Positions 6,820-50,728 of a DNA stretch of 64,000 bases are shown here, piece by piece. The stretch is from positions 558,001-622,000 of the forward strand of contig NC_017098.1 of assembly GCF_000242595.2 (NCBI RefSeq). The letters are read 5' to 3'. The stretch comes from Spirochaeta africana DSM 8902 (GTDB lineage: Bacteria > Spirochaetota > Spirochaetia > DSM-27196 > DSM-8902). Numbering within the stretch: position 1 is the stretch's first letter; each line of letters starts with the position of its first letter. A program made the position numbers and the translations under genes. Under the pieces are notes generated by a model. That model was given only the letters and a program-made list of their open reading frames with translations, did not search any database and was not told where the DNA came from.

Positions 6820-9595
6820 TGCTCTGGTTACCCTGGTGGTGGTGATCCTGTCGCTGCTGCTGGGGCTGGCCTATTATCAGGAATTACACCGCGTATTCCA
6901 GGCGCGCGATGCACAGGAGCTGGGGATTATCGTGTTCCGGCGGCGTTCGGCCACCCGGCGCCCGGGGGATTCCCTGCGCTGGGGGCGGCTGAGCAACGAA
7001 TCGCCGGTGTATCAGGGGGATGTTATCCGCACCGCGGGGCTGTCAGAGGCGGGGATCCACTTCGAGGACGGTACCAGCCTGGATATCCTGGAAAACTCGA
7101 TGGTTGCCCTGAACTTCGATGACATGCTGCGGGAGTTCGAGTTTCTTGGCGGTACGATTTTTATCGGCGGGGACCGCGAGGCGGCGCGCAATGTGCGGGT
7201 GCGCATGGGGGATACCGTGGTGGAGGCCAGCGCCGATGCCCGGGTAGCGGTCTCGGCCGACGGGAATGAGCTGTCGGTGGATGTCGCCGACGGACAGGCC
7301 GATGTGCTGCGGGAGACAGGTGAGCGCGACACGGTGCTGGCCAACAGTACCTACGTGCTGAATACCGCTACCGGGGAGGCGAGTACCGTAGCCCATACGA
7401 TCCTGCCGCAGTGGCCGCGCCAGAACAGCCGGCTGGTGCATCAGTATCAGGCAGTGCCGGAGCTGCGGCTGCAGTTCGAGCTGGCCGAGCCGGTTACCGA
7501 GGATCTGCCGGTGGTGGTGGAGATTAGCCGTGAGCCGGGGTTTGCCGAGCTGCAGGCTGTACTGCCGGCGGAGCTGCCGGCCGGCAGCCGCGAGCTGGTT
7601 GCCCTGCCGGTGGAGCTGCCGGTCGGGCAGTGGTATTGGCGGGTACGCAGTCGCGATCAGGGTCGTGAGCTGCAGTCGCCGGTTCGGCGCTTCCGGGTGC
7701 TGCACAGCGAGCTGCCCCGGCCGCTGCGGCCGCTGCCGGCGGCGGAGCTGGGGTTTCGTCGTCAGCTGCCGCAGGTCCGCTTTGCCTGGAGCTCGGTTGC
7801 TGATGCCGGGGGCTACATCCTGGAGCTGGCACGAGATGCTGCCTTTACCCGCGAGGTGCAGCGGATACGCTCGGTGCATGCCGGTATTGCGGTGCCGATG
7901 CCGGGAGAGGGTGATTGGTACTGGCGGGTGAGCCCGATACTGCCGTATGAGTATCTGCATGCCCCGGGGGCTACAACCCCGCGCGTGCTTACGGTGCAGC
8001 AGCAGGAGGCTATGCAGCCGCTGCAGGCGGGTATGCCGGCCGATGCAACCCTGTTCGAAATCCAGCAGGTGCAGCAGTCGGGTCTCGCATTCTCGTGGCA
8101 GCCGGAGCGCGAGGCGCAGCGCTATCAGTTGCTGCTCTCGCGCGAAGCGTCGCCGGACCCCGATGATCCCGGGGTTGTCCGACAGGAGACCCGGCAGCCG
8201 TTTGCCCGTGTTGCTGCTGAAGCACTGGGGGAGGAGCTTTCCGAGCAAGCCTGGTACTGGGGCGTGCGCTGGCAGGATGCCGAGGGCAGCTGGTCGCCAC
8301 CGGGGGAGTTCCGCCGCCTGAATCTGGTGGATGGCGAGTTTGCGCTGCGGCTGGTCTACCCTCCGGGCGGTTTCCGGATAGCCGATTCGCTGGCAGCTAC
8401 CAGCCGCTTTACCTGGAGCAGCAATATCGATGCCCCGACGGTGTTCCAGCTGGCCGAGGATCCCCTGTTCCAGCAGGTGGTGTTCGAGCATGAGGTGAGC
8501 GGGGACTCCCTGTTCGGCCGATCCTGGGAGCCGGGGGAGTATTTCTGGCGGATGCGTACCTACAACGTGGATGGCTCGGTATTCCTGGATACCCCGCCGC
8601 GCGAGGTACAGATTGTGCCGCCGCTGGATCGCAGCGAGCTGAGGCAGCCGGCGCCGGGGCAGACCCACATGCTGGTGGATGGCGATACCCTGCAGTTTCG
8701 CTGGGAACCGGTGCCGCAGGCAGACTACTACCGCTTCCAGCTGTTCCGGCCGGGCAGCAGCACCCCGGTCTACGACGAGGGCCTGCTGGGCGAGCCCGCC
8801 GCCATGGTGGCACTGGGGGACATGCCGGACGGGGCGTATCGCGCCGTAATCCAGGGATTTGCCCTGGCCAGCGAGGAATCCACCCGGGTGATCGGCTATC
8901 GGGCGGAGTTTCCCTTTACCAGTCATCGCCTGAGCCCGGTGGAGCTGCAGCAGCCGGCCGACGGGCAGCGGATTGATGGCCTGACCGCCCTGCGCAGCGG
9001 CGTGCGGCTGAGCTGGGATGCCGCCGATGTCCCGGATGAGCTTTCGATCGAGCTGCTGCATAACGGGGAGCCGGTACCGGTAGATGCCTCGCCCCGTCGC
9101 TCGGCGGCAACCGTTGGTCGTCTGCGGCCGGGGCGTTATGTCTGGCGTGCAGCAGCCGAGCTGCAGGGATTTGATCTTTCCAGCCGCGGCAGCCGCAGTT
9201 TTATTGTTGATCAGGTGCCGCCGATGCGCGAGCCGCAGCTGCAGACCCCGCAGCCGGACAGCGAGTTCGGCCCGCAGGAGCTGGCAGGCCGCGACAGCAT
9301 CCGCTTTCGCTGGGAATCCCTGGATGCCGCCAATCGCTACATCATCGGGGTGTACCGGGCCGACAGCGGCGAGGCGGTGGTGCCCCCGCAGGTGCTGGAG
9401 GAGGCAGCCTTCGAGCTGGACGACCTGTCGCGCTTGAGTCGCGGCGAGTTTCGCTGGGAGGTGCAGGGACAGTACCGCGCCGATGACGGCTATCTGGAAC
9501 AGGATGGCCTGCCGGCCGAGGGGCATTTCAGGATTGTACTGCCGGAGCTGATGATCCCGGCCGGTGTGCGGGAGGCAGAGCTCTATGGCCGTTGA
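6800..9595 (+). CDS. FecR-domain protein with repeated FN3/Ig-like modules
   Basis: This 931-residue protein has one N-terminal membrane anchor (about 8-27). A FecR domain follows (about 55-190: VYQGDVIRTAG, EAGIHFEDGTSLDI, GTIFIGG). After it come about six beta-sandwich repeats of roughly 100 residues, each with an F.W core (RFAWSS, RFTWSS, LQFRWEP, IRFRWES) and a closing YWRV-type strand. It is predicted to be anchored in the inner membrane with its bulk in the periplasm. FecR domains in other systems relay signals from outer-membrane proteins. The start overlaps the cyclase by 20 bp and follows a GGAAG Shine-Dalgarno sequence. The 3' end overlaps the barrel gene. A scaffold linking barrel to cyclase is inference. 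Confidence 0.82.
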   Translation: MRFSRSDALVTLVVVILSLLLGLAYYQELHRVFQARDAQELGIIVFRRRSATRRPGDSLRWGRLSNESPVYQGDVIRTAGLSEAGIHFEDGTSLDILENSMVALNFDDMLREFEFLGGTIFIGGDREAARNVRVRMGDTVVEASADARVAVSADGNELSVDVADGQADVLRETGERDTVLANSTYVLNTATGEASTVAHTILPQWPRQNSRLVHQYQAVPELRLQFELAEPVTEDLPVVVEISREPGFAELQAVLPAELPAGSRELVALPVELPVGQWYWRVRSRDQGRELQSPVRRFRVLHSELPRPLRPLPAAELGFRRQLPQVRFAWSSVADAGGYILELARDAAFTREVQRIRSVHAGIAVPMPGEGDWYWRVSPILPYEYLHAPGATTPRVLTVQQQEAMQPLQAGMPADATLFEIQQVQQSGLAFSWQPEREAQRYQLLLSREASPDPDDPGVVRQETRQPFARVAAEALGEELSEQAWYWGVRWQDAEGSWSPPGEFRRLNLVDGEFALRLVYPPGGFRIADSLAATSRFTWSSNIDAPTVFQLAEDPLFQQVVFEHEVSGDSLFGRSWEPGEYFWRMRTYNVDGSVFLDTPPREVQIVPPLDRSELRQPAPGQTHMLVDGDTLQFRWEPVPQADYYRFQLFRPGSSTPVYDEGLLGEPAAMVALGDMPDGAYRAVIQGFALASEESTRVIGYRAEFPFTSHRLSPVELQQPADGQRIDGLTALRSGVRLSWDAADVPDELSIELLHNGEPVPVDASPRRSAATVGRLRPGRYVWRAAAELQGFDLSSRGSRSFIVDQVPPMREPQLQTPQPDSEFGPQELAGRDSIRFRWESLDAANRYIIGVYRADSGEAVVPPQVLEEAAFELDDLSRLSRGEFRWEVQGQYRADDGYLEQDGLPAEGHFRIVLPELMIPAGVREAELYGR

Positions 9596-10793
9596 TACCC
9601 CCTTCGGGCGACGCGCTCGCCACTTGATTGCCATTGCGGTGCTCGGGCTGATCGGCCTGACGGCTTCAGGGCAGGAGCTTGCCGGACAGCAGCAGGCCGG
9701 GCAGGCTGATCCCGCCGAACAGACCGCGACCTATTTTTACGAGCTGGATGCCGACGGCAACCCCGAGTTTACCCAGGTGCTGTCGTGGGAAGCGGTGGCG
9801 CATGTGCGCCGCTACCGCCTGGAGGTGGAGGATGCGGCCGGACAGCTGATCCACGAGCAGACCTCGGTCGAGCCGCAGCAGGAGGTGCAGCTGCCGCCGG
9901 GGGAGTATCGCTACCGGATCGTGCTGTACAACCTGCTGGATCAGCCCGAGCTGGCCACTGGCTGGTACCCGATCCTGATCCGCCAGGCGCTGCAGCCGGA
10001 GATAGCCGGCCTGGAGCCCGGGGTGGTTTATCTGGAGGATGAGCGCTTCGAGCTGCTGGTAACCGGGCAGGACCTGGAGCCGGATGCCGAGTTCATCCTG
10101 CTGGATTACGAGACCGGGCAGCAGCGCTACCAGCTCTCCCTGCAGCAGCTGCAGGAAGACGGGGTTGAACTGCGGCTGCCGGCACGGATTGATGCCGGTG
10201 AGTTTCTTCTGCAGATAACCAACCCCGGCGGGCTGTATGAGCGATATCCCGAGCCGCTGCGGGTGCGCTACCAGAAGCCGATCGACCTGGCCGTGCTGGC
10301 CGGCTGGTCACCGGTTTTCCCGCTTATGGATGACTGGGTAACCCGGATATGGCCCGAGACCGTCTACCCGGTGGGGGCAGATCTGCAGCTGGATGTTATC
10401 TTCCTGAAGCGCTGGTTCGGGTATCTGGGGATCGGGGTAAACCTGACGGCCGCCGGGTTTACCGGCGGGGAGGCCGATGCCCGGGTAGTAACCACCCTGG
10501 GGCGGCTGGACCTGCAGCTGGTGTACAGCTACTACTTCAGCCCGCGATGGCTTGCTACCCTCCGGCTGGGGGGTGGAGTAACCTACACCGACCTGCAGAT
10601 GGAGTATACCGGCGGTGTTACCGGTGAGCCCTTTGCCACCACCGACCCCGGCTACAGCCTGGGGCTGGCGCTGGGCTATGAACCGGTGGGCTGGCTGCGG
10701 CTGGGCCCGGCTGCCCGGCTGCACCTGATCCCCTACCGCGACAACACCGCCCTGTTCTTTACCCCCGGGCTGTACGCCGGCTGGGTGTATTAG
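9585..10793 (+). CDS. Exported Ig-like/outer-membrane beta-barrel protein
   Basis: The start at 9585 is preferred over an in-frame GTG at 9564 because GGGAGG sits at the right distance upstream and a clean signal peptide follows (about 1-31, ending near TASGQE). The protein is 402 residues. An N-terminal FN3-like domain (about 40-125, LSWEAVAHVRRYRLEVED) is followed by an IPT/Ig-like domain (about 130-225). The C-terminal part (about 235-402) has alternating beta-strands and a terminal aromatic strand (LYAGWVY), as in an outer-membrane barrel. It overlaps the FecR gene by 11 bp and is last in the unit. It is the natural outer-membrane partner of the FecR protein, but no specific function is recognised. 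Confidence 0.72.
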   Translation: MAVDTPFGRRARHLIAIAVLGLIGLTASGQELAGQQQAGQADPAEQTATYFYELDADGNPEFTQVLSWEAVAHVRRYRLEVEDAAGQLIHEQTSVEPQQEVQLPPGEYRYRIVLYNLLDQPELATGWYPILIRQALQPEIAGLEPGVVYLEDERFELLVTGQDLEPDAEFILLDYETGQQRYQLSLQQLQEDGVELRLPARIDAGEFLLQITNPGGLYERYPEPLRVRYQKPIDLAVLAGWSPVFPLMDDWVTRIWPETVYPVGADLQLDVIFLKRWFGYLGIGVNLTAAGFTGGEADARVVTTLGRLDLQLVYSYYFSPRWLATLRLGGGVTYTDLQMEYTGGVTGEPFATTDPGYSLGLALGYEPVGWLRLGPAARLHLIPYRDNTALFFTPGLYAGWVY

Positions 10794-43878: not shown

Positions 43879-44655
43879 TTACGAGATTGCCCCGGCGGCA
43901 AAGAATTCACGAACCGGAGTCGGTCCTTCGACCACCGCACAGGCCGGCGATCCCTGAAAAATACAGCCGCCGTTGTGCAGAAAAATCAGTTCATCGGCAA
44001 TCCGGTGGATGCTGGCCAGTTCATGGGTTACTACTACGATGGTCATGGAGTACTGCTGCCGAAGCCGCAGCAGCAGCGCATCCAGTTCGGCGGCAGTGAC
44101 CGGATCCAGCCCTGCCGATGGCTCGTCGCAGAACAGGACAGCCGGGTTCAGAATCATGGCTCTCGCCAGGGCCGCCCGTTTTCGCATGCCGCCTGACAGC
44201 TCGCCCGGCAGTTTCCAGAGGTCATCTGCCAGACCGACGCTTGCCAGCTGACGGTGCACCAGCTGCAGGATCATATCGTCCGGCAGGTCGGTATGCTGCT
44301 CCAGCGGCATGGCGACGTTCTCGCAGAGCGAAAGCGAGTTGATCAGGGCACCCCCCTGGAACAGTACGCCGATTTCGCGCAGCAGCATGTCGTAGCTGTT
44401 CTCGCCCAGTCCCAGAAGGTCATGTCCCAGCAGTTCGATCCTGCCTGCCAGCGCTGGTGTCAACCGCAGCATGGTCTTGAGCAGTGTCGATTTGCCGCAG
44501 CCGCTGCCGCCCAGTATAACCGTTATGCGCCCGGCAGGGATCGAGAGAGAAAGATCCTGCAGTACCGGGGTCTCCCCGTAGCCGGCAGCAACCTGTTGCA
44601 GTACCACTGCAGCCGGGGATCGGTCTGCGGCGGTACCGGGATTACGGGTATTCAT
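43879..44655 (-). CDS. mlaF: MCE-transporter ATP-binding protein (MlaF type)
   Basis: This 258-residue ABC ATPase has Walker A LGGSGCGKSTLLKTML, Q loop EIGVLFQGGALINSL, signature ELSGGMRKRAALARA and Walker B VLFCDEPSAGLDPVTA. The phrases LFQGGALINSLSLCENVAMPL and GGMRKRAALARAM are characteristic of MlaF/MKL-family ATPases that drive MCE lipid transporters. GGAGGACC precedes the ATG. It is last of four genes, 9 bp after the permease. Confidence 0.93.
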   Translation of the reverse strand: MNTRNPGTAADRSPAAVVLQQVAAGYGETPVLQDLSLSIPAGRITVILGGSGCGKSTLLKTMLRLTPALAGRIELLGHDLLGLGENSYDMLLREIGVLFQGGALINSLSLCENVAMPLEQHTDLPDDMILQLVHRQLASVGLADDLWKLPGELSGGMRKRAALARAMILNPAVLFCDEPSAGLDPVTAAELDALLLRLRQQYSMTIVVVTHELASIHRIADELIFLHNGGCIFQGSPACAVVEGPTPVREFFAAGAIS

Positions 44656-44664
44656 GCGGTCCTC

Positions 44665-45741
44665 CTATAGCAGTGTCAGGCTGAACAGCGCGTCCAGCAC
44701 CAGCACCGCAAAGATAGCTGCCACCACCGACTTGGTGGTGGCACGGCCGACCCCCTCTGCACCGCCCTCAACCTGAAAACCGAAATGGGCTCCGATCAGG
44801 ACAATCACCCAGGCAAATACCACCGTCTTGCTGTAACTGCGCACCAGATCGCGCAGCAGGATCACCGAAGCGCTCTGCTGCAGGTATGTTGTCGGATGGA
44901 TGTCCAGATATCCCATGCCGATAACCGCACCGCCCAGGACCCCGGCGGTGATCGCCAGGGTAAGCAGCAGTGGCATTACCAGGGTTATTGCCATCAGCTT
45001 GGGCACCACAACATATTTTACCGGGTGCAGCCCCATTACCTTCAGGGCCTCCAGCTCCTCGGTAACCCTCATGGTTGCAATCTCCGAGGCGGTTGCCGAT
45101 CCGGTTCGGCCGGCGACAATAATGGAGGTCATGATCGGTCCCATTTCGTGAATCAGCGCCAGGGCAATCAGATCGGCTACCAGCATGCCGGCACCAAACT
45201 GCTGCAGCTGGATAGCCGCCTGTAGTGCCAGGATAAAACCGAGGATTGCCGACAGCAGACCGATTATCCCGACCGCCTCGACACCCATGGTAAAGCAATG
45301 AGCTATGACCGAGCCGGATCTCCGATCCTGCGGATGGAAGATCCCGGTGATGCTCCAGTACAGGCTGTCGGCGGCAAGCTGAAAAAAGGCACGCAGGGCC
45401 AGGATTCTGGCCAGGGCCGCAGCCCCGGTGCGTTCAAGAAAACGGGGGTGCTGCGGGACTGGCATCGGGCCAGGCTGGACAGCCTCGCTGGCGGTGTAGA
45501 TCTGGCGCAGCTGCTCCGGCAGGCTGTGCAGGGTTTCAGTGCGCAATCGGTGATGCCTGTGCAATAGCTGCTGCAAAAACAGCGCGCCGGCCGGATCCAG
45601 GGCGGTTACCCGGCTCAGGTCCAGATGATCGGGAACCTGTTTCTGAAAGCGATAGTGCAGCTGTGCAGCCGCCTGGTAATCCAGTCTGCCAACAAGGCGA
45701 ACGGTGCCCTCCTGTTGTTCGATCTGCATATCGGTCCCCAT
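44665..45741 (-). CDS. mlaE: MCE-transporter permease with N-terminal STAS domain (MlaE type)
   Basis: This is a 358-residue protein. Residues 1 to about 95 form a STAS-like domain (VRLVGRLDYQAAAQLHYRF, LDLSRVTALDPAGALFLQQL), in place of the separate MlaB of E. coli. The rest is a MlaE permease with about five TMs and the signatures GVEAVGIIGLLSAILGFILA, LIHEMGPIMTSIIVAGRTGS, EIATMRVTEELEALKVMGL and a final VDALFSLTLL-type helix. It exports or imports phospholipid between the membranes with MlaF and MlaD. The start overlaps the preceding stop (TGATG), so the two are coupled. Confidence 0.92.
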   Translation of the reverse strand: MGTDMQIEQQEGTVRLVGRLDYQAAAQLHYRFQKQVPDHLDLSRVTALDPAGALFLQQLLHRHHRLRTETLHSLPEQLRQIYTASEAVQPGPMPVPQHPRFLERTGAAALARILALRAFFQLAADSLYWSITGIFHPQDRRSGSVIAHCFTMGVEAVGIIGLLSAILGFILALQAAIQLQQFGAGMLVADLIALALIHEMGPIMTSIIVAGRTGSATASEIATMRVTEELEALKVMGLHPVKYVVVPKLMAITLVMPLLLTLAITAGVLGGAVIGMGYLDIHPTTYLQQSASVILLRDLVRSYSKTVVFAWVIVLIGAHFGFQVEGGAEGVGRATTKSVVAAIFAVLVLDALFSLTLL

Positions 45742-47771
45742 CAGTTCAGCAAATAGCTCAGGCGCAGCACCAGACGGTGGCTGTAGTTCAATTCAAAGAG
45801 ATCGCTCTGCGGGGTATTGCTCACGATGAAGCGATAGTTCAGTGAGAGCGGTCGCAGCAGCAGCCAGTTGAGTCCGGTACTCCATTCCAGGATGATATTC
45901 TCTCCTTCCAGCAGCGGGAACAGCAGATCCGCGGTGGTGTTCAGCTGTACCCGGCGCAGCGGACGGAACCCTCCCATGGCCGAAACCTCAAGACCAACCG
46001 AGGTGTCGTCCTCCAGATCCTCGTAGCCATCGCTGGTAACCCGTTGTACCCCGCGGTTGAATTCCTGCCTCAGCCCGAATCCGCTGCGCAGGGTCAGTGA
46101 GGCGCGCGGGGCATTCAACAGCCGCAGATTCAGCCCGACACCCTCGCGCATCAGCAGCGGGAACAGCGGCGGTTCCAGTACCACCGGGTCTGCATCCTCG
46201 GGAAGGTTCCGGTCGTATACCGGGAAGAAGTGGGTGTTCAGGTCGAACCTGGCGTACACGCCAAGATTGCGATAGACATCCAGGATGCCGGCGGTGCGGA
46301 GGTCAAAGTCATCCTCGCGAATTTCGATCCCCGAGTCCTGGTCCCAGCCCAGTCCCAGCTCGGAAAACTGCAGGATATTCAGGGTGGTGCGACGCTGCTG
46401 GTACCGTAGCTGGTTGTCCAGCTGGCCGGTAAGGGTGGCCGAATAAGCCCCGTCTGCACCGTAATTGCGATGGCTGCCGATAAAGTTCAGCACCGCATGC
46501 AGCGAACTGCTGAGGTTCCAGTTGCCAAAGGGCAGAGCAATCAACTCGTCATCGATGATACCGGCGCCGATCATCCGGACCGGACCTTCGGTAGTATCGA
46601 CCACTACCGTCAGGCGCTTCCATTTTCCCTCTTCTATCTGAATGGTGGTAAAGTTGCGATAGGTGTTGAAGGGTTCGTTGTCCAGGGTGATCTTGTACAA
46701 TCCTGGCGGAAGGTGGATCACATCCGGGCTGTCGCCCAGTTCCTCGCGGGCCGGGAAGCGCGATATATAACTGGTTCCCTCTGCATCGAACACCTCAAAC
46801 AGGATGTCCTGCGGGGTTCTGCGCTCGTCGATGATCTCTACCGTGAGCTCTCCCCAGTCGGGGCGAACCAGGGTGCGGTAGCCCCGCCGCACCTGTACCC
46901 CCCGTTGCTGCATCTGCAGCTCCGCCGAACCGCTGCCGTACAGCAGATGATACTCGCCGGCAGGCAGTGCCAGGTCTTCGCCAAAAACCCCCTGGTATTC
47001 GCGTCCCTGCCGGTCGATTGCAAGAAAGCTGGCGGTTTCACGGATGCCGCTGATGCTTGGCATCAGCAGTATTCCGTGCCCATCCGGGGCGTCTGCTGCT
47101 TCCAGATCGTGCTGTTCATCATCGGCGGCAGCGGTGCGTCGGGCAGCCGCCGGCCGCTCGTCAAAATGGGCATAGATCAGGTCGATAAAGATATCGAACT
47201 CCTCGAGTATCAGTTCGTTCAGGGTCTGGACATAGAGCTCCATCGAGGTTGAGTACAGGGGCTGCATGCGATTGCTGCGGTGCGACAGTATCGTCTCGCC
47301 GCGCCCGTCGCGCAGGGTAAGGGTCATGTCCAGGGATGCCTCGCTGAGGGCCTCGGAACGAACCAGCTCAACCCGGTGTACCTGCATCGCAATCTCGAAA
47401 TCCGGACGGGAGTCCAGAAAATCCATGCTGGCACTGCGGAAGCTGTTGTATGCCTGCAGGCGGGTGGTGAGCAGACGCGGAAAAAAATCGCTTAAGCGAC
47501 CAGCCCACAGATCCCGCTCGCTGTAGCTGATCTGCGGACCGAAATGACGGACTACCATCTGGCGACCGCTGTAGGTGCGCGGGATTTCCGGTGTCTGTAT
47601 CCAGACCCGATAGGGCAGCGGTTCCTGGCGAACAAGATCGCGCGACTCGGTATAGTCCAGATAGTCCAGGGTGTAGTAGTAGGTTGGCAGCTGCTCCGGG
47701 GTAAGGCAGCCGGCCAGCAGCCCCAGGAGCAGGAGTAATGCCAGCAGCTTGGTAGACCGGAAGGTTCTCAT
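45741..47771 (-). CDS. Fusion of PqiC-like auxiliary lipoprotein, Ig-like modules and outer-membrane beta-barrel
   Basis: The start at 47771 is chosen for AGGAG at the right distance; a GTG two codons upstream is possible. It encodes 676 residues with canonical lipobox LLAGC (Cys 22). Residues about 25-205 match the ABC-transport auxiliary lipoprotein fold of PqiC/YmbA (YYYTLDYLD, GRQMVVRHFGPQISYSERDLWAGRL, FEIAMQVHRVELVRSEA). About 230-400 are two or more beta-sandwich modules. About 420-676 are amphipathic beta-strands ending LVLRLSYLLN, as expected for an outer-membrane barrel. It sits between the MCE protein and the permease, so it is the likely outer-membrane end of this lipid transporter. 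This domain fusion is unusual. Confidence 0.82.
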   Translation of the reverse strand: MRTFRSTKLLALLLLLGLLAGCLTPEQLPTYYYTLDYLDYTESRDLVRQEPLPYRVWIQTPEIPRTYSGRQMVVRHFGPQISYSERDLWAGRLSDFFPRLLTTRLQAYNSFRSASMDFLDSRPDFEIAMQVHRVELVRSEALSEASLDMTLTLRDGRGETILSHRSNRMQPLYSTSMELYVQTLNELILEEFDIFIDLIYAHFDERPAAARRTAAADDEQHDLEAADAPDGHGILLMPSISGIRETASFLAIDRQGREYQGVFGEDLALPAGEYHLLYGSGSAELQMQQRGVQVRRGYRTLVRPDWGELTVEIIDERRTPQDILFEVFDAEGTSYISRFPAREELGDSPDVIHLPPGLYKITLDNEPFNTYRNFTTIQIEEGKWKRLTVVVDTTEGPVRMIGAGIIDDELIALPFGNWNLSSSLHAVLNFIGSHRNYGADGAYSATLTGQLDNQLRYQQRRTTLNILQFSELGLGWDQDSGIEIREDDFDLRTAGILDVYRNLGVYARFDLNTHFFPVYDRNLPEDADPVVLEPPLFPLLMREGVGLNLRLLNAPRASLTLRSGFGLRQEFNRGVQRVTSDGYEDLEDDTSVGLEVSAMGGFRPLRRVQLNTTADLLFPLLEGENIILEWSTGLNWLLLRPLSLNYRFIVSNTPQSDLFELNYSHRLVLRLSYLLN

Positions 47772-47779
47772 ACACACTC

Positions 47780-48838
47780 CTAAAAACGGATCAGGCTTGA
47801 GGGATCCTCGCTTATTATGCGCGAGAATTCGCTCAGGTCTTCCAGTATTTCGTTCAGGATCTCCATTGATCGCAGCACATCGCGGCTGGAACGGATTATG
47901 GTCATGTCCATACGGTTAAAGGTCGTACCGAACTGCTCCAGCAGCACAGCGGTTTCGCCAGCAATCTCGGCCAGCGGCACCTGCGCAATAGTGTCGGCAA
48001 TCTCTGCCAGATTATGCGATATCTCGGCTGATCGTTCGGCGGTGGTTGCCGCATTCTGCAGTATACCGATCCATTCCGGCGACTCGGTCAGTTCCCGTAT
48101 GCGGCCGGTAATCTCCTGGAGGTCGGCAGCGCCGGCAGCGATTGCCTCCAGGCTGGAATCGAACTGCGGGCTGCCGGTGACGGCTTCCAGCCGGGCCGAG
48201 ATGACCGCCGCCGAGGCAGCCAGCTGCTGCAGATCCTCGGTAATACTGTCCAGGCGCACAATGGAGGCAGCAAGCGGTTCGCCGGCCTCGGCCAGGGTTT
48301 CATCGACGTGGGCCAGGATGCTGCGCACGCGCTGCTGATTGTCGGGACCAAGCAGCAGATTGATGTTGTTCAGGGTCTGTTCAACCTTGGCAATGATAAT
48401 CTGAGCATCTCCGGTAATGTTGTCAAACAGGGAGGTGCCCGGGGTGATATATGATTCCGGCGGCAGCAGGGCGGCTGCCCGTGACCCGCCTATAAGCTCG
48501 ATCTGCCTCCCGCCGGTTATCCCGGTCATGGTGAGCTGGGCCTCGACATCGGCCTTGATCGGCACCCCTTCCTGCAGACTTAATACGACGGTTACCCGTC
48601 GTGGTTCCTCGGGATCAAAGCGTATATCATCAACCCGACCAACCTGAATGCCCTGGTACAGTACCGAACTGCCCAGCTGCAGTCCGCTCACCGGCTGATC
48701 CAGAAACTCTATGTAGTAGATGTCGCGAGACTGCAGCAGTGCATCCCCCAAAACCCAGATAAAGAAGCCGATTGTCAGAATTCCGCCGACCAGCCAAAAG
48801 ATCCCGAGCCGAATTTTCTGTTCTGTGGTCAAGCGCAT
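47780..48838 (-). CDS. mlaD: MCE-domain substrate-binding protein (MlaD type)
   Basis: This 352-residue protein has an N-terminal TM helix (LGIFWLVGGILTIGFFIWVL) and then an MCE domain (about 38-120: YYIEFLDQPVSGLQLGSSVL, YQGIQVGRVDDIRF, MTGITGGRQIELIGG). A long periplasmic helical tail follows (about 150-352) with heptad-like repeats and an Asn/Leu-rich end. Such tails form a tube that conducts lipid across the periplasm. First of four genes. The promoter ends 6 nt before the ATG. The next gene starts 9 bp after this stop. Confidence 0.93.
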   Translation of the reverse strand: MRLTTEQKIRLGIFWLVGGILTIGFFIWVLGDALLQSRDIYYIEFLDQPVSGLQLGSSVLYQGIQVGRVDDIRFDPEEPRRVTVVLSLQEGVPIKADVEAQLTMTGITGGRQIELIGGSRAAALLPPESYITPGTSLFDNITGDAQIIIAKVEQTLNNINLLLGPDNQQRVRSILAHVDETLAEAGEPLAASIVRLDSITEDLQQLAASAAVISARLEAVTGSPQFDSSLEAIAAGAADLQEITGRIRELTESPEWIGILQNAATTAERSAEISHNLAEIADTIAQVPLAEIAGETAVLLEQFGTTFNRMDMTIIRSSRDVLRSMEILNEILEDLSEFSRIISEDPSSLIRF

Positions 48839-48937: not shown

Positions 48938-49543
48938 TCAGAAGGTCAGTGCGATGTACGGGAACAAGAGCAGGGAATGATCGACTGCCAGGTAGATGCT
49001 GCTTACGATATCCACTACGTCGTAATCAGCCATTACGCCTACAGCCAGACCAACGTTGTCAAGGAAAGAAATTCCAGCCTGTGCCTGACCTCTCAGGCCG
49101 GCCCCCATGTAGAATGTGGTGTTATCACCGGTGCCAATGAGATAGGCGATGCCGGCGCCACCGGCAGCTTGCAGGTGGAAGCGATCAGCGAACTCGCCGC
49201 GAAAGCCGACACCCAGCATGTAGCTCATGTTGAGCATAGGATCTGCCAGGTCCCCCGAAAAAGCAGGCGAGCTGCTTCCGTTGGAGAGTTCGGTTTCTCC
49301 ACGGGTAAGCCAGTTTGCGGTGCCTCGCCCGAAAATGCCTATGGAAGATCGAGCCTGCAGTATACTGTACTGCACACCGCTGCCGCTCAGGGTAGTGGTT
49401 GCGGTTGTGGTATCGTTGATGCTTTCTACCAGCTGATATCTGGCAAAGCCGAAGCCCAGGCTGTGATAATGATTGGTAGAATACCCGCTGGCAGCAGCAA
49501 GGAAAAATATGCAGGCAGCCAGGCAGAAGGTTTTGGATTGCAT
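48938..49543 (-). CDS. Small outer-membrane beta-barrel protein
   Basis: This 201-residue protein has a signal peptide cleaved near ASGYST. The mature part alternates hydrophobic and polar residues in strands joined by short turns (HSLGFGFARYQLVE, MLGVGFRGEFADRFHLQAAGG, YMGAGLRGQAQAGIS) and ends in the aromatic strand LLLFPYIALTF, the usual C-terminal signal for barrel assembly. It is probably an 8-stranded porin-like barrel. Function unknown. It is similar in size and style to the 50070 gene. Confidence 0.7.
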   Translation of the reverse strand: MQSKTFCLAACIFFLAAASGYSTNHYHSLGFGFARYQLVESINDTTTATTTLSGSGVQYSILQARSSIGIFGRGTANWLTRGETELSNGSSSPAFSGDLADPMLNMSYMLGVGFRGEFADRFHLQAAGGAGIAYLIGTGDNTTFYMGAGLRGQAQAGISFLDNVGLAVGVMADYDVVDIVSSIYLAVDHSLLLFPYIALTF

Positions 49544-49607
49544 GTAAGCCTCCGGTTGTTTTATCGGTAATTATGCAAATTACGCAGAAATATGCAATCT
49601 GTTCATA

Positions 49608-49640
49608 TAAAAAAACCGGAGTGGTCAGAGCACTCCGGTT
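49608..49640 (-). terminator. Rho-independent terminator of the 49662 lipoprotein gene
   Basis: On the minus strand a 10-bp stem (AACCGGAGTG with CACTCCGGTT, 7-nt loop) runs directly into a run of T. It lies 22 bp after the stop codon. Confidence 0.9.
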
Positions 49641-49661
49641 ATGGCAAGCGATCGCAGCAGC

Positions 49662-50030
49662 TTACTGCTGGATTGCGGCGCCCTCTACCTCAACGGTTCC
49701 CCAGGAGAGGAACGGGACAAATGAACTCAGAATGAAGTCCACAAAGGTGTATCCATCGCGGATTGTCATGTTGGTGACTGCGTTTGCATCGGCAGCAGTC
49801 AGCGCTGGTTCCAGAATGATGTCCAGCTGTTCGGTCGGGTTGTCGCCCAGTACGAACAGGGACGGGTGAATGATGTAGATGTAGCCTTCATCTACCGCAA
49901 TATCGCCGCGAGCTTCGCCGGTAACCGAGGCATATGCCAGGTTACCGTCGGTTGCGGTGTAGGTTGTCATACAGCCGGACAGAGCCACGGCTGCAGCAAG
50001 AATAATCAAGCCAAGCAGAATTTTTTTCAT
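49662..50030 (-). CDS. Small lipoprotein, unknown function
   Basis: This 122-residue protein starts at MKKILLGLIILAAAVALSGC (Cys 20). GGAGGATGG precedes the ATG, which is better than the in-frame ATG at 50042. The mature part has a beta-rich centre (DIAVDEGYIYIIHPSLFVLG, DGYTFVDFILSSFVPFLSWG) and ends with VEVEGAAIQQ. The size and the late hydrophobic LSSFVPFLSWG segment recall small TRL/Bor-like lipoproteins, without clear homology. It ends in a strong terminator. Confidence 0.7.
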   Translation of the reverse strand: MKKILLGLIILAAAVALSGCMTTYTATDGNLAYASVTGEARGDIAVDEGYIYIIHPSLFVLGDNPTEQLDIILEPALTAADANAVTNMTIRDGYTFVDFILSSFVPFLSWGTVEVEGAAIQQ

Positions 50031-50069
50031 ACCATCCTCCATTGAACACCCCTGCTCTGACCAGGGCTG

Positions 50070-50606
50070 TTACTGTTTGTTTCTCAGGGGATACGCCCCT
50101 AATAATCTTCCAATAAAAACTGTCCAGCCATGCGTCGAGTGATACGACGCACCGATACCGATGCCGCTGATAGGGCCAAGGGGAAGCCGGACATGCGGGG
50201 TAATGCGATACACTGGCGAATCATCATAGCCGAAGGCCCAGCCGACGTCGCCGGTAACATATACACCGAACAGTTTTGACTGTGCGCTGCTCAACCTCTC
50301 GAACAACGGGAGCTCAAGCCCGACCGAGGGGGTAAACCCCGCGTCCCAGGTGTAGCCAAGGTTGGCACGCAGGCGCGGGCGTACCAGGCCCCGACCGTAG
50401 CCATATGCCAGTCCGAGGCCGAGATACCTGGAGGAAATAAAACTGCGTACCGGTTCATCGGCATCAGCAGTAAAATCCCATTCCGTGTTTACACCGAAAT
50501 AGTGAGGCAGATAGCGATCGGATGTGGCCGATGCAGCTGCAGGTGCCCATAGAAATATACACAGCAATACACAGACTGTCACAGACAGTCTTCCGGGGGA
50601 GTTCAT
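50070..50606 (-). CDS. Small outer-membrane beta-barrel protein
   Basis: This 178-residue protein starts at MNSPGRLSV, with a signal peptide cleaved near AAASATS. An in-frame ATG at 50627 would only lengthen the leader. The mature part has barrel-like strands (YLGLGLAYGYGRGLVRPRLR, LFGVYVTGDVGWAFGYDD, GIGIGASYHSTHGWTVFIGR). A perfect TTGACA is found on the minus strand at 50638-50643, with only a weak -10 (TCCAGT) at 18 nt. Function unknown. It is 39 bp upstream of the 49662 lipoprotein gene. Confidence 0.65.
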   Translation of the reverse strand: MNSPGRLSVTVCVLLCIFLWAPAAASATSDRYLPHYFGVNTEWDFTADADEPVRSFISSRYLGLGLAYGYGRGLVRPRLRANLGYTWDAGFTPSVGLELPLFERLSSAQSKLFGVYVTGDVGWAFGYDDSPVYRITPHVRLPLGPISGIGIGASYHSTHGWTVFIGRLLGAYPLRNKQ

Positions 50607-50728
50607 ACCAAGCATCACTGGAAGCATAGCGCAGCCGGAATGTCAAATCAAATTATTCGTAAAAAAATTGTCCTGGTGCCCGGGTGGCAGACCCGGCAGG
50701 GTCTGCGGGCACAACAACAGGTAACCGA

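Follow-up and report, generated by a model that had tools for sequence, protein, structure and literature searches.

An operon of Spirochaeta africana DSM 8902 encodes, in a single chain, a PqiC-like lipoprotein joined through a beta-rich middle to a predicted 12-strand outer-membrane barrel. The likeliest role of the barrel is that of an anchor, holding the PqiC-like collar in the outer membrane around the tip of the MlaD needle. The fusion offers a concrete candidate for the way in which MCE lipid bridges are fixed to the outer membrane. A barrel-bearing collar lipoprotein that occurs in nearly all of Cloacimonadota and is naturally split in some relatives also offers structural work a covalently defined outer-membrane terminus.

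The operon and its genome

The window, meaning the whole stretch of DNA analysed, comprises 64,000 nucleotides (positions 558,001 to 622,000 of NC_017098.1) of a genome that consists of a single contig of 3,285,855 bases. On its reverse strand mlaD, the fusion gene, a STAS-fused mlaE and mlaF follow one another, tightly packed:

47780..48838 (-): MlaD-type MCE protein, 352 aa, with one MCE domain (PF02470 1.9e-15, residues 48-118) and a long tail ending SEDPSSLIRF
45741..47771 (-): fusion protein, 676 aa, PqiC/MpcA-type lipoprotein plus beta-rich middle plus outer-membrane barrel (ORF, Pfam, model, structural matches)
44665..45741 (-): MlaE-type permease with an N-terminal, MlaB-like STAS domain, 358 aa (PF02405 2.7e-67, STAS_2 9.4e-05)
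43879..44655 (-): MlaF-type ABC ATPase, 258 aa (PF00005 4.7e-29)

The open reading frame of the fusion extends over 45741..47777 (-) and gives 678 aa from a GTG, or 676 aa if the ATG at 47771 is the start. A GGAG site precedes this ATG and overlaps the mlaD stop, and at the other end the stop of the fusion gene overlaps the mlaE start as TGATG. For the ATPase the top NCBIfam match is the MlaF model, with a score under that model's equivalog cut-off. The tail of MlaD (residues 125-352) contains 3.5% aromatics and by composition reads as helix-rich; Pfam found no barrel family in this protein. Three small envelope-type genes lie upstream of mlaD (window 48938-50627, -): one encodes a secreted protein of 201 aa, possibly a small barrel, another a lipoprotein of 126 aa and the third an OMP_b-brl protein of 185 aa. 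None of them was seen beside homologous operons.

Neither MlaA (PF04333) nor MlaC (PF05494) was found in the complete genome, which is consistent with a direct bridge. LpxC was not recognised there either; the function of E. coli Mla in LPS asymmetry is therefore not simply transferable, and with none of the three proteins found, E. coli is no straightforward guide to what the system carries or what it is for. Judged from its gene content, the host is apparently a diderm without classical LPS that nevertheless has two MCE operons, one of them the bridge described here. The second operon (L037, G000:C1:2306000-2324000, 7310-10752) is different: genes of the MlaE, MlaF and MlaD types are followed by one for a TPR-repeat lipoprotein in place of the PqiC-like one.

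Domain structure of the fusion protein

The chain divides into the following parts:

47706..47771 (-): signal peptide and lipobox (LLAGC), residues 1-22 (sequence; conserved Cys22)
47163..47690 (-): PqiC-like domain, residues 28-203 (PF03886 1.7e-14; PqiC 8q2d Z 19.6, rmsd 2.0, 154 aligned)
47094..47156 (-): linker of low confidence (low pLDDT), residues 206-226, the split point in some relatives (split genes L107, L108, L109, L111, L112)
46557..47078 (-): all-beta middle, residues 232-405 (strands in model; no family over cut-off)
45747..46520 (-): 12-strand outer-membrane barrel, DUF481-like, residues 418-675 (model; Tsx/NanC/KdgM/OMPLA matches; DUF481 in relatives)

The structures discussed are those of an AlphaFold2 model built from 55 homologues, which replaced a 19-sequence model (pLDDT 73). 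Its mean pLDDT is 85.7 and its pTM 0.54, with uncertain placement of the domains relative to one another.

Cys22 is invariant in the 19 full-length fusions and nearly so among 55 rows, some of which are split genes for the barrel half only. Residues 52-188 match PF03886 (ABC_trans_aux) at 54.2 bits against a curated cut-off of 26 (E=1.7e-14), and residues 28-203 of the model superpose on PqiC-fold structures (6osx, Z 20.4; 8q2d, 19.6; 8q2c, 19.5; 2iqi, 19.3). Score, fold and lipobox together place this half among the PF03886 PqiC-type lipoproteins. A single-sequence PDB search with the fusion returned chance matches only, plus one weak PF03886 entry. The all-beta middle probably forms two Ig-like sandwiches in the model, and Pfam has nothing over cut-off for it (PEGA, E=0.12).

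Across residues 418-675 the model predicts 12 long strands, whose in/out hydrophobic alternation exceeds that of all 5000 strand shuffles. Residues 418-673 match solved barrels, with Tsx (Z 13.5) ahead of NanC and KdgM (both 12.8), OmpG (12.2) and OMPLA (11.4). Outer-membrane proteins usually end in Y or F; the fusion ends in LRLSYLLN, and a terminal Y or F occurs in 32 of the 40 homologous barrel ORFs read. DUF481 (PF04338), a predicted 12-strand barrel family (TC 1.B.75, PMC4827864), resembles the barrel half in strand number and matches 39 of 55 relatives at E<=0.01, passing the curated cut-off in L060 (28.5 bits) and L107 (28.9 bits). The match of the window protein, however, stays below it (17.0-19.5 bits vs 21.1), and proteins of the DUF481 family consist of a barrel alone, ~277 aa long. 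An OMPLA-like phospholipase activity was considered and rejected: no phospholipase family was matched, and Tsx, NanC and KdgM score above OMPLA.

Most of what the earlier note on this DNA had proposed for the chain stands. The ORF and LAGC22 confirm a single 676-residue protein with a lipobox; the PF03886 score and the PqiC superpositions (Z 19.5-20.4) bear out a PqiC/YmbA-like N-terminal part, and the 12 modelled strands with barrel matches up to Z 13.5 a C-terminal membrane barrel, so that neither of the outcomes named in the note as refuting it has come about. The position between mlaD and mlaE with translational coupling agrees with the GGAG and TGATG overlaps. The Ig-like modules hold in part: the region is all-beta with two sandwich-like units in the model, but no Pfam family reaches its cut-off.

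The inner face of the modelled barrel is on average 66% polar and 31% charged, and it is more conserved than the hydrophobic outer face. This bears on the idea that the barrel is itself a lipid portal, one protein both docking the needle and conducting lipid through the barrel or sideways out of it. Fusion to the collar in a one-to-one ratio would suit such a role, as would a 12-strand fold that the barrel has in common with many proteins, the outer-membrane lipid enzyme OMPLA being one of them, and the very high conservation of Y506, R508, P538, G546, G564, G566 and G593 in the barrel. Yet 12-strand barrels of known structure are narrow, and one barrel per collar subunit would put the barrels off the needle axis. 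The polar lining speaks against a greasy lipid tunnel in each barrel, while a lateral or between-barrel route is still compatible with it. A portal of this kind is therefore unlikely, and the lipid entry or exit pore suggested by the earlier note is not borne out.

The nearest solved folds are small-solute channels: Tsx, NanC and KdgM are 12-strand barrels that pass small polar solutes. The barrel could accordingly be a nutrient channel or receptor in a system that imports from outside and has no part in membrane upkeep, and mycobacterial MCE systems do import lipids (PMC10665443). Sugars or nucleosides, the cargo of Tsx/NanC/KdgM-type channels, fit a MlaE/MCE transporter poorly, however; a fold by itself does not give function, and the near-universal single copy in Cloacimonadota is more housekeeping-like. 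We regard a nutrient channel as quite improbable.

Distribution

Within the spirochaete order, 4 of 46 genomes have the full-length fusion. Besides the window genome, three genomes of this order, belonging to one family, carry it in the same operon slot at ~30% identity. Among 393 genomes sampled evenly across Spirochaetota, the full-length protein occurs in the window genome only. A scan of genome contigs with the single protein as query gave no match. When a profile was used instead and one genome per species was scanned, full-length homologues appeared in metagenome-assembled genomes whose titles name Cloacimonadota, Neomarinimicrobiota and, once, Armatimonadota. Any profile match is present in 111 of 125 genomes of Cloacimonadota (the phylum of G441), most of them whole-length in one ORF, and in 16 of 199 genomes of Neomarinimicrobiota (the phylum of G442). 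The genome titled Armatimonadota (L050, equal to G443 in the search of the G441 phylum) groups with the Cloacimonadota set, and its title is probably wrong. The fusion is thus typical of Cloacimonadota and not general across Spirochaetota, other families of the order having a stand-alone lipoprotein.

Homologues of the fusion at 26-37% identity are found in about 50 other loci from three phyla, and the order D-fusion-E-F is kept wherever the contig is readable. A chance fusion, or a sequencing error uniting two unrelated genes in the window genome, has in its favour the stand-alone lipoprotein of sister families and nothing else. The probability left to it is negligible: the genome is a single contig, and the recurrence of the same fusion in three phyla, in the mla operon wherever readable, rules it out.

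In trees of MlaE and of the fusion the window protein sits on an end branch of 1.6-1.7 that meets other long branches, and its placement is not secure. The fusions from spirochaetes are found among Cloacimonadota and Neomarinimicrobiota rows, which suggests, short of proof, lateral transfer of the fusion into spirochaetes. Many Cloacimonadota have a large gene directly 5' of mlaD (L049, L053-L056, L058, L060, L061, L062, L068). The one in L060 (L060:3-4967) is of SprA type (PF14349, 5e-17), a component of type 9 secretion and gliding.

Split and stand-alone forms

The two halves are separate neighbouring genes in five of the Cloacimonadota loci read (L107, L108, L109, L111, L112), and match tables point to a few further split loci. 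One gene of each pair encodes the lipoprotein, at 200-217 aa, and the other the beta-plus-barrel part, at 516-526 aa and headed by a signal peptide of its own; in L107 the genes overlap by four bases. Because the split pair holds the same slot and the barrel gene bears its own signal peptide, lipoprotein and barrel would seem to be separable modules that are kept together. The operon slot shared by fused and split forms points to joint action of the two halves in a single complex. In L109 a 95-aa ORF (L109:3833-4120) lies between the two genes of the pair. The lipoprotein half in L113:3258-5495 is broken across two frames, by sequencing error or in a decaying copy, unlike the clean splits.

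In three other families of the spirochaete order, exactly the place of the fusion gene in the operon is taken by a stand-alone lipoprotein of 194-220 aa, and none of the loci read from these families has a barrel gene next to it. The motif around DPSxL at the C-terminus of the neighbouring MlaD is kept, with variations, beside fused, split and stand-alone lipoproteins alike, which makes it a candidate docking peptide. A strict scripted DPSxL pattern is found in 48 of 53 MlaD tails beside a fused lipoprotein, 3 of 5 beside a split and 3 of 11 beside a stand-alone one; its misses are mostly close variants or motifs farther from the end.

Comparison with known MCE systems

The closest described counterpart is Mpc of Brucella abortus (MpcE/F/D/A), in which MpcA is a PqiC-like lipoprotein that pulls down MpcD, E and F (PMC12436622). 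Both systems combine a STAS-fused MlaE-type permease, a MlaF-type ATPase, an elongated MlaD-type protein with a single MCE domain and a PqiC-like lipoprotein, without MlaA or MlaC. MpcA, however, is described without a barrel, whereas the window protein adds ~450 residues including the 12-strand barrel, and the lipoprotein gene is last in Brucella but lies between D and E in the window. With D, A, STAS-fused E and F together and an A component that is not small and barrel-less, the window operon is a variant of the Mpc-type system and not Mpc itself. The four-gene, self-contained bridge proposed in the earlier note is confirmed as an operon, but a D-A-E-F bridge had already been described (PMC12436622).

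In E. coli, PqiC assembles as an octameric collar that anchors the PqiB needle; the collar is ~100 A wide and its pore ~40 A (PMC10897342). PqiC shares with the fusion protein a lipobox, the PF03886 domain, the fold (Z ~19.5) and an MCE-needle partner (PMC10897342), but it has ~187 aa and no barrel. PqiB has three MCE domains, where one was found in the window MlaD, and PqiA is not an ABC transporter. The MlaA and MlaC of E. coli Mla have no counterpart in the window genome.

MlaD of Veillonella parvula is modelled as a hexamer with six barrels at the needle end (PMC10665443). This system, too, is an MCE bridge that has outer-membrane barrels of its own and does without MlaA and MlaC (PMC10665443). 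There a 10-strand barrel sits on the MCE protein and no lipoprotein is present, whereas in the window a 12-strand barrel sits on the collar lipoprotein and the MlaD sequence carries no recognisable C-terminal barrel. PelB-PelC (PDB 9h80, 5t11), both among the structural matches, also pairs a ring lipoprotein of the same fold with an outer-membrane barrel, but as separate proteins, with many PelC per PelB and a polysaccharide cargo.

The Mpc-like four-gene core and, from Veillonella, MCE bridges with barrels are thus already known. What the window protein adds is a barrel carried by the collar lipoprotein; the literature searched, which included few subscription papers, yielded no description of a PqiC-like lipoprotein in fusion with a barrel. 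This third layout joins those with a collar only and with a barrel on the MCE protein. Cloacimonadota are placed near the FCB group. In the Veillonella survey, MlaD of FCB-group bacteria has no barrel (PMC10665443). If Cloacimonadota do lie near FCB, the fusion may provide such lineages with a barrel.

Proposed mechanism

We consider it fairly probable that the operon encodes an MCE lipid transporter of the needle type, akin to Mpc and Mla, that the fusion forms its outer-membrane end, and that the barrels anchor it and are not individual lipid tunnels. MlaE2-MlaF2 with the STAS domain would sit in the inner membrane, and the long tail of the MlaD hexamer would span the periplasm. The PqiC-like domain would form a lipidated collar that receives this tail, a contact we infer. 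Each collar subunit would bear its own 12-strand barrel via the beta-rich spacer and, if the collar is octameric like PqiC, some eight barrels would ring a patch of outer membrane. The needle would face this barrel-fenced patch and lipids would move between the two, both cargo and direction being conjectural. The barrels would chiefly anchor and orient the collar, and perhaps disturb the membrane locally.

By simple arithmetic, eight barrels of an assumed ~30 A would form a ring with a diameter of ~106 A and a central space of ~46 A, dimensions similar to those of the PqiC toroid; the octamer is borrowed from PqiC, and the dodecamer formed by PelC, which has the same fold, counts against it. 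A bolder version is possible but doubtful: about eight barrels, each contributed by one collar subunit, would together make a ring that serves as a dedicated outer-membrane portal, and lipids would enter or leave inside or between them. If true, the barrel ring would supply the terminus that the Pqi and Mpc models lack or define poorly.
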